Assembly: GCF_019711495.1 (NCBI RefSeq)
Contig: NZ_JAIGNM010000001.1
Location: 1,550,001-1,614,000, forward strand
DNA length: 64,000 bases
From: Qipengyuania xiamenensis
GTDB lineage: Bacteria; Pseudomonadota; Alphaproteobacteria; Sphingomonadales; Sphingomonadaceae
Reading direction: 5' to 3'
Shown: piece after piece, positions 12,948 to 16,033 of the stretch
How positions within the stretch are numbered: position 1 is the first letter of the stretch
Layout: the number at the start of each line of letters is the position of its first letter
Made by a program: the position numbers and the translations under genes
The notes under the pieces: model-generated
What the model was told of the DNA's origin: nothing
Database searches by the model: none
Seen by the model: only the letters and a program-made list of their open reading frames with translations

Positions 12948-13780
12948 TCAGGTGGGCCCAGCGTCACGAGCCACACGTCTGGCGGCGCGCCATAGCGCAG
13001 CGGGAGTAGACTGGTGCCAAGTCCCGCACCCACGAAGACCGTCTGCTCGCCGTCGCGTATCATACCGCAGGCGAAGCGGTCGCCAAAGCGCGACATGGTC
13101 GAAACCGGCCCGATGACCGGCAGGCTGATTTGCCCGCAATGCGTGTGGCCGGCGAAGACTGCCGAAACCGCACGCGGAAGGTCGGGAACGATATCGGGTG
13201 TGTGGCTGACTACCACCGCCGGCCCCGCGCCTAGTGCCTCAAGCGCGGCAAATGTCGCGGGCACGTCGTCGTGGCCAGTAAAATCGTCATCCACCGCGCC
13301 GATAAGCAACGGCCCTCGCCGAGCAGCGGCATTGCGCAGGACAGTAATGCCATGACCTTCGAGCGCGGTGACCATCGCGTCCAAATCGACCCAATGGTCG
13401 TGATTACCGGGGGCAACCACCACGCCAAAGCGCGCTTCGAACGCTGCGAAGGACGCGGCCACTTCCTCCTCGGAATAGAGCTTCGTCGCGGTGCGTTTCT
13501 CGCTGATTAGATCGCCCGCCACGAGGATGAGGTCAGGCGACAGCGCATTCAACTGCCGCGCGATATGCTCCACCCGCGAAGGCGGCATATCGGGCCCTGC
13601 CACATGGACATCCGACAGGGCGAGAACCCTGAGAGGCGCTTCGCCCTCCGGCCAGCCAGCCACCGGCACATAAGCCTTGCGCACGATCGGGTCCGCTCGC
13701 GCGTTGGAATAGCCGAGCGCGAGGACGAGCAGGCCGGCCAGCACGGCGACCAGCGCCGCAAGTCCCAATCGCCGGATCAC
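12944..13780 (-). CDS. Membrane-anchored metallophosphoesterase (YkuE/YaeI type)
   Basis: This 278-aa calcineurin-like phosphoesterase has an N-terminal membrane helix (about 5-25), so the catalytic domain probably faces the periplasm. All dinuclear-metal motifs are visible: LALSDVHVA, VAGDLIS, PGNHDHW, VSHTPD and FAGHTHCGQ. Relatives act on lipid-linked or nucleotide phosphoesters such as UDP-diacylglucosamine. It starts with GTG six bases after the thrS stop and overlaps the TauE gene downstream, so it lies in the thrS transcript. The physiological substrate is not evident. Confidence 0.9.
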   Translation of the reverse strand: MIRRLGLAALVAVLAGLLVLALGYSNARADPIVRKAYVPVAGWPEGEAPLRVLALSDVHVAGPDMPPSRVEHIARQLNALSPDLILVAGDLISEKRTATKLYSEEEVAASFAAFEARFGVVVAPGNHDHWVDLDAMVTALEGHGITVLRNAAARRGPLLIGAVDDDFTGHDDVPATFAALEALGAGPAVVVSHTPDIVPDLPRAVSAVFAGHTHCGQISLPVIGPVSTMSRFGDRFACGMIRDGEQTVFVGAGLGTSLLPLRYGAPPDVWLVTLGPPE

Positions 13781-13786
13781 GGAAGA

Positions 13787-15799
13787 CTAGTCCCGCAGGT
13801 CCGGCGGGGTCGCTTCGGCCTTGAGCATCGCGATGGCTTCCTCGAGCGGCATGACCTTCTGGTGCTGCTGGCCAAGCGTTCGGACGGCAACTGTGCCTTC
13901 CTCGGCCTCGCGATTGCCGACCACCAGCAGGTGCGGGACCTTGGCGACCGAGTGTTCGCGCACCTTGTAGTTGATCTTCTCGTTGCGAAGATCGCTTTCC
14001 ACGCGGATGCCTGCAGCTTCCAGCTTGGCGACCGCTTCCTTCGCATAGTCGTCGGCGTCCGAAACGATCGTTGCGACCACCGCCTGTGTCGGCGCGAGCC
14101 AGCAAGGCAGGCGGCCGGCGAAGTGCTCGATCAGGATGCCGATGAAGCGCTCGTAGGAACCGAAGATCGCACGGTGCAGCATGACCGGGCGGTGCTTCTC
14201 GCCGTCTTCGCCGACATAGCTTGCATCGAGACGTTCGGGCAGCACGCGGTCGCCCTGGATCGTGCCGACCTGCCAGGTGCGGCCGATGGCATCGGTGAGG
14301 TGCCATTCGAGCTTGGGCGCATAGAAGGCGCCTTCGCCTTCCAGCTCTTCCCAGCCGAATTCCTCGTTCATCATGCCGGCTTCCTCGACGGCATCGCGCA
14401 ATTCCTGTTCAGCCTTGTCCCAGTCCGCATCCGAACCGAGCCGCTTTTCGGGGCGCAGCGCGAGCTTGATCGCGAAGTCGAAGCCGAAGTCCTTGTACAC
14501 GCCCTCGGCCAGCTTGCAGAACGCACGGACCTCTTCGACGACCTGAGCCTCGGTGCAGAAGATATGTGCATCGTCCTGTGTGAACTGGCGCACGCGCATG
14601 AGGCCGTGGAGCGCTCCATGCGGTTCGTTGCGGTGGCAGCAGCCCATCTCGCCAAGGCGGATCGGCAGGTCGCGATAGGACGTGATGCCCTGCTTGAAGA
14701 CCAGCACATGGGCCGGGCAGTTCATCGGCTTGATCGCCATCCAGTCGGCGTCCTTGGCAACGCTCGGATGCGCACCGGCACCGCTGTCGTCGACCTCGGG
14801 CACCATGTCGGGCACGGCGAACATGTTCTCCGCATACTTGCCCCAGTGGCCGGACTGCTCCCACTGGCGGACGTCCATCAGCTGCGGCGTCTTGATCTCG
14901 CGGTAGCCCGCGCCGTCCATCTTGCGGCGCATGTATGCTTCTAGCTCGCGCCAGATGCGATAGCCGTTGGGATGCCAGAAGACGCTGCCGTGGGCCTCTT
15001 CCTGCAGGTGGAAGAGATCCATTTCGCGGCCCAGTTTGCGGTGGTCGCGCTTGGCGGCCTCTTCCAGCCGCATGAGGTGCGCATTGAGCTGCTTCTTGTT
15101 GAGCCAGCCCGTGCCGTAGATGCGCGTCAGCTGCGCATTCTTCTGGTCGCCGCGCCAATAGGCACCGGCGACGCGCATCAGCTTGAAGGCCTGCGGGTCG
15201 AGCTTACCCGTCGAAGCAAGGTGCGGGCCGCGGCACATGTCGAGCCAGTCTTCACCCGACCAGTAGACCGTCAGCTCCTCGTTCTCGGGCAGTTCCTTGG
15301 CCCATTCGGCCTTGAATACCTCGCCCTCGGCTTCCCACTTGTCAATCAGCTGCTGGCGGCTCCAGACCTCGCGGCGCAGCGGCTTGTCGGCCTTGATGAT
15401 GCGGCGCATTTCCTCCTCGATCGCGGGGAGGTCGTCCATGGAGAACGGCTCGCGCGTGTCGGGCGCCTTCACGTCGTAATAAAAGCCATCGTCCGTTGCT
15501 GGACCGAAGGTGATCTGCGTGCCGGGGTAGAGCGACTGCACGGCTTCTGCGAGCACGTGCGCGAAGTCGTGACGTGCGAGTTCAAGCGCGTCTTCCTCGT
15601 CGCGGCTCGTCACCAGCGCGAGCTCGGCATCGCCTTCGAAGGGGCGGTTGATGTCGCGCAGCTCACCATCGACACGCGCGGCGATGGCGGCCTTGGCGAG
15701 GCCCGGGCCGATCGCGGCGGCGACGTCGGCAGGCGTGCTGCCGGGTTCCATTTCGCGCACCGAACCGTCGGGCAGGCTGATCTTCAAAAGTTCCGTCAT
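13787..15799 (-). CDS. thrS: Threonyl-tRNA synthetase
   Basis: The 670-aa class II synthetase charges tRNA-Thr. It contains a TGS domain (about 1-62, [12 protein letters not shown]), the editing domain with the [10 protein letters not shown] histidine pair (about 72-230), the catalytic core with the zinc-binding [11 protein letters not shown] and HRNEPHG motif 2, and the C-terminal anticodon-binding domain (about 560-660). I start it at ATG 15799 (MTELLKIS), which matches the usual N-terminus; an in-frame ATG 12 codons upstream lacks support. The 230 bases upstream hold a threonine-rich leader ORF and competing hairpins, so expression is probably set by threonyl-tRNA supply. It heads a likely operon with the genes down to 9506. 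Confidence 0.97.
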
Positions 15800-15854
15800 C
15801 GTCTCATCCGTTGCTTGTCGAGGCCCATGGCACAACAGGGCGCACGCTTGAAGC

Positions 15855-15893
15855 GGCGTTTTGGGAGAATTTCGCGATTTCGGGAGGAACGCC
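15855..15893 (-). promoter_or_regulatory. Second hairpin in the thrS leader
   Basis: On the minus strand, GGCGTT (15893-15888) pairs with AACGCC (15860-15855) around a loop of about 27 bases. It follows the attenuator hairpin directly. There is no clear U tract, so its role, whether an extra terminator element, a pause site or a transcript stabiliser, is uncertain. Confidence 0.4.
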
Positions 15894-15952
15894 TGCCACC
15901 CGAAACCGGGTGGCGGCAGCTCGCGTCAGTCCGCGACTACCCGCCCCCGGTT
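15892..15952 (-). promoter_or_regulatory. Threonine attenuator: antiterminator and competing hairpin
   Basis: Two mutually exclusive helices can form on the minus-strand RNA. Region 2 (15952-15941, AACCGGGGGCGG) pairs with region 3 (15916-15904) in 12 Watson-Crick pairs with one bulged A at 15911. The 5' part of region 3 can instead form the 3:4 hairpin GCCACCCG (15914-15907), loop GTTT, CGGGTGGC (15902-15895), extended by GCC/GGC. A short 1:2 helix is also possible between ACTACC in the Thr codons and GGTAGT at 15941-15936. This is the layout of classical ribosome-mediated attenuators. A U run after the 3:4 hairpin is missing, so termination may be Rho-aided or the control may work another way. 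Confidence 0.7.
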
Positions 15953-15997
15953 GCCCGAGGTGGTGGTAGTAGTGGTCGTGATGCATGCCTGCGTCAT
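15926..15997 (-). CDS. Threonine-rich leader peptide of thrS (23 aa)
   Basis: A 23-codon reading frame begins MTQACI and continues with seven threonine codons in a row (15979-15959: ACG ACC ACT ACT ACC ACC ACC), then SGNRGRVVAD and TGA. Eight of its 23 residues are threonine, and it lies about 130 bases upstream of the threonyl-tRNA synthetase gene in the same orientation. Its composition resembles E. coli ThrL, which also ends its Thr run in a Gly-Asn context. A ribosome stalled on these codons would leave region 2 free to form the antiterminator, raising thrS expression when Thr-tRNA is scarce. No Shine-Dalgarno is seen, which fits a leaderless start at the predicted transcription start. 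Confidence 0.75.
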   Translation of the reverse strand: MTQACITTTTTTTSGNRGRVVAD

Positions 15998-16004
15998 GCA
16001 GCCA

Positions 16005-16033
16005 CAGATAGCGGCGAGAGGTTAAATTCTCAA
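16005..16033 (-). promoter_or_regulatory. Predicted thrS leader promoter
   Basis: On the minus strand, TTGAGA (16033-16028) is followed after 17 bases by TATCTG (16010-16005). Seven bases further on lies the A of the leader ATG (15997), so transcription would begin at or within a base of the start codon. The -35 box overlaps the phoD stop codon. Confidence 0.5.

Follow-up and report, generated by a model that had tools for sequence, protein, structure and literature searches.

Is the threonyl-tRNA synthetase gene, thrS, controlled in a sphingomonad through threonine codons that lie upstream of it? The question is raised by a locus in the 64,000-nt stretch of Qipengyuania xiamenensis DNA analyzed here (the window), where an earlier note had described a 23-codon ORF with seven Thr codons on the same strand as thrS and had proposed ribosome-mediated attenuation. 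The ORF is exact to the base:

13787–15799, (–) strand: thrS (threonyl-tRNA synthetase), the presumed target, from the ORF list and Pfam domains
15926–15997, (–) strand: leader ORF of 23 codons, from the sequence (ATG 15997–15995, TGA 15928–15926)

The ORF starts 198 nt upstream of thrS and encodes the peptide MTQACITTTTTTTSGNRGRVVAD. Its seven Thr codons are consecutive (ACG ACC ACT ACT ACC ACC ACC, 15979–15959), and the run is cognate to the operon, as in a classical attenuator. Pfam domains at the locus are those of thrS, a calcineurin-like phosphoesterase and two TauE genes, with a PhoD-like phosphatase upstream. The genes following thrS had been described as overlapping, which holds for the metallophosphoesterase gene and the first TauE gene (4 nt shared) but not for thrS and the metallophosphoesterase gene, as thrS ends at 13787 and the next ORF starts at 13780. 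From the comparisons set out below, we consider it likely that this region is a ribosome-mediated, Thr-codon-dependent cis-regulatory leader of thrS with a pseudoknot-like arm.

Two sets of loci were compared. thrS was found in 41 of 41 genomes, that of the window included; the second set comprised 80 named thrS loci, the nearest from Qipengyuania, Erythrobacter and Altererythrobacter, with the window's own record possibly excluded. A Thr-rich leader ORF is present in 74 of the 103 loci of the two sets (71 without the duplicate records L033, L067 and L077). It is absent from the other 29, as judged by inspection and with the Thr-containing GTG ORFs of L019 and L108 left uncounted, and these related loci count against our main reading. 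In seven loci from other families of the order (L024–L030), the 320 nt preceding thrS lack such a leader, the exception being L028, which carries a 47-codon TTG ORF with three Thr.

A covariance model, R2, was built with helices 1:2 and 3:4, which are defined below; model R1, for which the RNAalifold consensus had joined region 2 to segment X, was unused in searches. Across the GTDB family, 104 of 298 genomes, in 37 of 96 genera, have an R2 match. Within the order R2 matches 48 of 196, with E-values as low as 4e-20 and every listed match belonging to the same family, and within the class 3 of 289, again in that family; the large scans used stricter filters, and weak matches were lost. A leader ORF that starts with ATG and contains 4 to 12 Thr lies 184–235 nt before thrS in 38 of 40 fetched regions, which consisted of 39 best matches, mostly weaker ones, and one second match. 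The two exceptions are L159, which stops at a contig end, and L178, the weak second match of genome G087, away from thrS. We conclude from these comparisons that the leader is a real, conserved element of thrS. A second copy in the window's genome was ruled out by the single R2 match there. A known Rfam family was likewise ruled out: no family matched 15850–16010 up to E 10, and the T-box model gave no match in that stretch and 0 matches at gathering in 8 related loci.

How strong is the Thr bias of the ORF? Thr makes up 30% of residues in 107 leaders, compared with 2.5% and 1.1% in the other two frames, although the leaders were selected by Thr content, so that Thr richness alone is partly circular. 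Less circular are the narrow length (23 codons in 64 of the 107 leaders), the use of all four Thr codons (ACC 408, ACT 163, ACG 140 and ACA 34) and the scarcity of Thr in the other frames. The longest run falls to just two Thr in five leaders of the whole set. Past the run, the peptide sequence is variable. Runs of seven Thr-type codons occur at two places in the 2.8-Mb genome, the leader being one (3 overlapping pattern matches at 2 places; a reversed control pattern likewise gave 3).

The region behind the Thr codons can form three competing helices:

15955–15960, (–) strand: segment 1 (CCUCGG), directly past the last Thr codons, pairs with segment 2; from the minimum-energy fold and swap test
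15941–15952, (–) strand: segment 2 (AACCGGGGGCGG), pairs with 1 or 3; from paired-cell counts and sister pairs
15904–15916, (–) strand: segment 3 (CCGCCACCCGGUU), pairs with 2 or 4; from paired-cell counts
15895–15914, (–) strand: hairpin 3:4 (GCCACCCG-GUUU-CGGGUGGC), the presumed OFF hairpin; from paired-cell counts and sister pairs

All three had been drawn in the earlier note, and each was recovered. The 12-bp helix of region 2 (15952–15941) with region 3 (15916–15904) bulges A15911, the 8-bp hairpin is found exactly at 15914–15895 (GCCACCCG-GTTT-CGGGTGGC in DNA letters), and the 6-bp helix at the Thr codons is CCUCGG/CCGGGG (15960–15955 with 15950–15945), which forms part of the minimum-energy fold. 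At –67.4 kcal/mol (z –4.28), the fold of 15885–16015 was not reached by any of 200 dinucleotide shuffles. In 63 of 64 leaders, segment 2 ends 12 nt ahead of the stop codon; in the 64, segment 3 starts 7–14 nt past it. Given the size of its footprint, a ribosome at the stop codon would mask segment 2, and one stalled in the Thr run would keep that segment accessible, so that the stop codon is placed for masking of region 2 as in a classical attenuator.

Alignment A1 holds 66 of the 71 leaders (L009, L048, L059, L064 and L073 were excluded as degenerate, inserted or deleted). In A1, 94.8% of cells are paired for 2:3, 98.3% for 3:4 and 84.2% for 1:2, and both 2:3 and the combination of 1:2 with 3:4 exceed all 500 shuffles on paired cells and on covariation score, in counts that, like those for 4:X below, take no account of relatedness. 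A swap test, in which own partners are compared with those of other genomes, gave z of –3.5 for 1:2, –5.8 for 2:3 and –4.2 for 3:4 on 51 representatives (49 where segments 6 and 7 are concerned). The 36 divergent loci outside A1 (of 38, two being duplicates) gave –2.9, –4.1 and –2.3, the last, for a hairpin that hardly varies, at noise level, with the control likewise at –2.3. Eleven other pairs, including 6:7, 5:7 and the ORF-start control (–2.3), ranged from –2.4 to +1.8 on the representatives; on the 36 loci the other pairs ranged from –2.3 to +2.3. Among informative path-disjoint sister pairs drawn from 102 loci, own pairing was better in 24 of 30 for 1:2, 22 of 31 for 2:3 and 17 of 25 for 3:4 (sign test p 0.054), with non-partners ranging from 11/28 to 13/22. 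In 14 leaders, G-C is replaced by A-U in hairpin 3:4, whose pair 105–132 changed together on the thrS tree in 4.9 of 6 independent contrasts and never oppositely. Comparison thus indicates compensatory change in 1:2, 2:3 and 3:4, and these mutually exclusive helices covary as in a classical attenuator, 3:4 most weakly. Relatives therefore carry both the Thr-rich leader ORF and the compensatory helix changes that the earlier note had proposed to look for in them.

The control pair, ORF start with the stretch past the stop (A1 columns 1–21 with 77–95), also leaned towards its own partner (27 of 40 sister pairs, p 0.02), and we have no explanation for this mild preference. A 6:7 hairpin was dropped (z –2.4 on the 51 representatives, –0.3 on the 36 loci and 16 of 29 sister pairs).

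What follows hairpin 3:4? In a textbook attenuator, a U-tract would stand here. Behind 3:4, the next 8 nt contain 0–4 U in 64 leaders, so there is no standard terminator, and the place is occupied by a covarying module:

15899–15908, (–) strand: segment 4 as used with X (CGGUUUCGGG), overlapping the loop and 3′ arm of 3:4; from swap tests
15888–15893, (–) strand: segment 5 (GGCGUU), at the expected place of the U-tract; from 5:6 complement counts
15875–15884, (–) strand: segment X (CCCGAAAUCG), 10 bp with segment 4; from counts, swap tests and sister pairs
15855–15860, (–) strand: segment 6 (AACGCC), pairs with segment 5; from swap tests, the tree and sister pairs

Swap-test z for 4:X was –10.6 on the 51 representatives and –9.4 on the 36 loci outside A1; for 5:6 it was –8.1 (49 representatives for segment 6) and –3.5. 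Replication on the 36 loci thus holds for 1:2, 2:3, 4:X and 5:6. Own pairing was better in 29 of 30 informative sister pairs for 4:X and in 20 of 28 for 5:6. In A1, 90.0% of 4:X cells are paired, and paired cells and covariation score exceed all 500 shuffles; pairs with double-sided change are not above shuffles, as 125 of 500 reach the count. On the thrS tree, independent double changes are few at 4:X columns 126–156, 128–155 and 124–159 (0.5, 1.1 and 2.6 in the same direction and 0.2, 0.0 and 1.1 oppositely, of 4, 4 and 6 contrasts). The claim for 4:X therefore rests on the swap tests, which allow indels. For 5:6, a perfect 6-bp complement occurs in 48 of 63 leaders versus a mean of 14.6 with arms swapped, the four main forms being GGCGTT/AACGCC (21), GGTGTT/AACACC (9), GGTGTC/GACACC (8) and GGCGTC/GACGCC (8). 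On the tree, all 5 independent contrasts at its third pair were joint changes, as were on average 4.3 of 6 at its sixth, and neither pair ever changed oppositely; both this test and the complement count are biased towards 5:6, since they used the best complement as the 6 arm. The 5:6 tree, loop and insert checks used 60 leaders, and alignment A2 held 52.

Since the segments follow one another in the order 4, 5, X, 6, the stems 4:X and 5:6 interleave as in an H-type pseudoknot. The loops would be 4–7, 2–5 and 9–15 nt, and H-type pseudoknot loops of such lengths are feasible. The two helices fit such a pseudoknot, in which both stems would be formed at once. Pairing of 4 with X excludes 3:4, with which it shares a segment, while 2:3 and 4:X compete for two G's at their shared border. 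When the window's leader is forced to fold with 3:4, its energy is –73.8 kcal/mol, which is also the free minimum; forcing 2:3 yields –69.5, and retaining eight of the ten 2:3 pairs while adding 4:X yields –67.3, a value that leaves out whatever 5:6 might contribute as a pseudoknot. Fold energies alone are no proof of a switch. Two side observations concern this part of the leader. Three congeners (L004, L017 and L036) have a long palindromic insert between X and 6, with AACGCC kept behind it in all three. L073 retains the Thr-rich ORF, and its segments 3–6 are apparently deleted, a case that weighs against our main reading.

Where would transcription begin? The sequence holds two candidate promoters:

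16005–16033, (–) strand: candidate promoter P1, TTGAGA (16033–16028), 17 nt, TATCTG (16010–16005); from the sequence
15824–15853, (–) strand: candidate second promoter P2, (C)TTCAAG (15853–15847), 17 nt, CATGGG (15829–15824); from motif conservation

In the window, TATCTG of P1 is followed by 7 nt and then the leader ATG. Aligned at ATG, 107 leaders (L064 and L175, which are identical, are counted twice here and in the Thr-content count) show T/G/A peaks at –35 to –33 and T/A at –13/–12; they lack a Shine-Dalgarno-like signal, no position from –9 to –2 exceeding 0.37 bits. The P1 start is predicted at or beside 15998–15997, and the message most likely begins at or next to the leader ATG; because the motif places the transcript start there, the leader ORF is probably leaderless. 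A P2-like motif (CTTY-N15-T-N5-A, at most 130 nt from thrS) occurs in 66 of 71 and 33 of 36 loci with a leader and in 9 of 29 without, versus shuffled means of 0.6–1.1. As its spacing is constant and it survives without the leader, the motif suggests a promoter for thrS alone, and P2 may drive thrS while bypassing the attenuator. If P2 is real, the leader contributes a starvation-induced share on top of a basal thrS level. A P2-like motif is kept 55–61 nt before thrS in leader-free L019, L051 and L091 and in six other loci.

How might these elements act together? The comparison supplies the ORF with its Thr bias, the geometry, the covarying helices and the two promoter-like motifs; from these we infer stalling, the direction of the switch, simultaneous pseudoknot stems, the OFF step and the role of P2. 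A P1 transcript would have the AUG of the Thr-rich ORF at or next to its 5′ end, so that ribosomes would initiate on a leaderless message. When charged Thr-tRNA is scarce, the ribosome would stall in the Thr run and mask segment 1, allowing 2 to pair with 3; segment 4, left free, could pair with X, 5:6 could close the pseudoknot, and transcription would reach thrS. With ample charged Thr-tRNA, the ribosome would run on to the stop codon, 12 nt past segment 2, and mask that segment; hairpin 3:4 would then form, precluding 4:X, and the P1 transcript would be shortened or in some other way withheld from thrS. Candidate P2 would give the basal thrS level. Of the attenuation architecture proposed in the earlier note, the Thr codons, the covarying 1:2, 2:3 and 3:4 and the stop codon 12 nt past region 2 stand, whereas 3:4 is no more than a putative terminator, as the U-tract is absent and 4:X and 5:6 take its place. 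Operon-wide control reaching the genes behind thrS, also suggested there, is likewise conjectural. Weak intrinsic termination, Rho, pausing and decay are all candidates for the OFF step.

One alternative concerns this step alone: the output may not be intrinsic termination at all, the choice between 3:4 and the pseudoknot instead determining access for Rho, decay of the RNA or pausing by the polymerase ahead of P2. The missing U-tract and the covarying 4:X and 5:6 in its place favor this idea. However, the missing U-tract says little, since positions 1–40000 of the window contain no more U-tract terminators than shuffled sequence does (12 versus 13.4, and 11 versus 12.0), and we regard this alternative as unlikely. 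Chance sequence combined with easy folding of GC-rich DNA might also be invoked, as the stretch is GC-rich and leaders were chosen by Thr content. Fold stability, the rarity of the Thr run and the swap tests oppose this explanation, to which we give practically no credence, and the distribution of R2 (104 of 298 genomes) and the sister-pair results led us to reject it.

Two further alternatives accept the element and assign it another role. The P1 transcript could be mainly trans-acting, either by itself as a small RNA or by way of its peptide, in the manner of rnTrpL/peTrpL in Sinorhizobium meliloti, with thrS expressed from P2. Indeed, the leaderless ORF and the structured RNA behind it resemble rnTrpL as far as the text consulted describes it (PMC7298713), and the P2-like motif is present in 99 of 107 loci. 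Yet thrS lies downstream in all 38 placed regions, the codons match the gene and the peptide is variable past the Thr run, making a mainly trans-acting role very unlikely. It is also conceivable, if highly improbable, that ThrS binds the leader RNA and represses its own synthesis as in E. coli, the Thr ORF being incidental. By eye, many loci have a hairpin-like stretch with a UGUG-containing loop 30–60 nt before thrS; but the UGU is inconstant (UUUGCC, UAUGCC and UUCUGCC forms occur), the fixed spacing better fits a promoter, and the stop codon geometry requires translation.

The E. coli thrS translational operator, which belongs to the same gene, binds ThrS and has no leader ORF; a conserved anticodon-like loop lies before its start codon. 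The E. coli thrA leader, which shares the regulatory codon, controls biosynthesis. In our loci, the sequence before thrS often shows UGUG by eye, but not constantly. E. coli ThrS autoregulation is mentioned in the part consulted of PMC2965389.

How does the leader compare with described attenuators? The consulted text of PMC1262725 reports ribosome-mediated attenuators of trpS and leuS in Streptomyces and cites that of pheST in gammaproteobacteria; in these, too, a synthetase gene is preceded by competing hairpins and by a leader ORF containing cognate codons, whereas the thrS leader has Thr codons, occurs in another bacterial class, lacks a U-tract and has the extra 4:X and 5:6. In Streptomyces lividans, a leaderless thrL with one hairpin and no U-rich stretch precedes thrS (PMC8079986, in the part consulted). 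Although alike in being leaderless, in preceding thrS and in lacking a U-rich stretch, thrL has two Thr codons only (MKRVRPFLETTPGFVPAR) and belongs to another phylum; compared by description and not by DNA, it comes with no competing or covarying helices in that text (PMC8079986). Although no thrS attenuator of this kind was familiar to the earlier note, a leader peptide upstream of thrS is on record in S. lividans, described without covariation evidence in the portion consulted (PMC8079986). The LEU element of actinobacterial leuA has an amino-acid-run ORF, a pseudoknot, an alternative hairpin and no obvious terminator, and the portion consulted describes a base stem pairing the Leu codons with the leuA Shine-Dalgarno box and cites a codon mutation as leaving regulation unaffected (PMC1262725). 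In the thrS leader, interleaved and covarying 4:X/5:6 together with 3:4 appear to provide the same combination of pseudoknot and alternative hairpin beside an amino-acid-run leader, but the helices end ~55 nt before thrS. Finally, rnTrpL of S. meliloti trpE(G), which starts with the trpL ATG, is likewise an alphaproteobacterial attenuator with a leaderless ORF at its 5′ end, but it has Trp codons, a biosynthetic gene and, in the text consulted, a described transcription terminator and trans roles (PMC7298713).

Leader peptides before synthetase genes, including Streptomyces thrS, are thus already known, and the new part is the pseudoknot-like arm. Among the matches listed from the open-access literature, we recognized no leader-peptide control of thrS in Proteobacteria and no earlier report of a codon-controlled synthetase gene in sphingomonads; subscription papers, such as the survey of proteobacterial attenuators by Vitreschak et al. 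(2004; cited in PMC1262725), lie outside this scope. Tentatively, and with a little less than even confidence, we propose that a switch in which a pseudoknot (4:X with 5:6) opposes a repressive hairpin through the chain 1:2, 2:3, 3:4, 4:X, with a leaderless ORF ahead and a bypass promoter behind, is a new attenuation layout, found in one family and at one gene, thrS.

With this leader, sphingomonads provide a concrete and widely conserved example of control of a synthetase gene by its cognate codons, and the RNA family is easily detected by R2. If the pseudoknot is real, the position of a ribosome could be read without a standard intrinsic terminator, which would be relevant to genomes in which U-tract terminators are not above chance, as in the 40 kb scanned here. 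As U-tract yardsticks we looked at trpE and ilvB of the window's genome, where the stretches read contain no amino-acid-run leader ORF. A strong GC-rich hairpin, GGCCCGGCGC...GCGCCGGGCC, lies upstream of ilvB (L187), where no leader peptide is evident.
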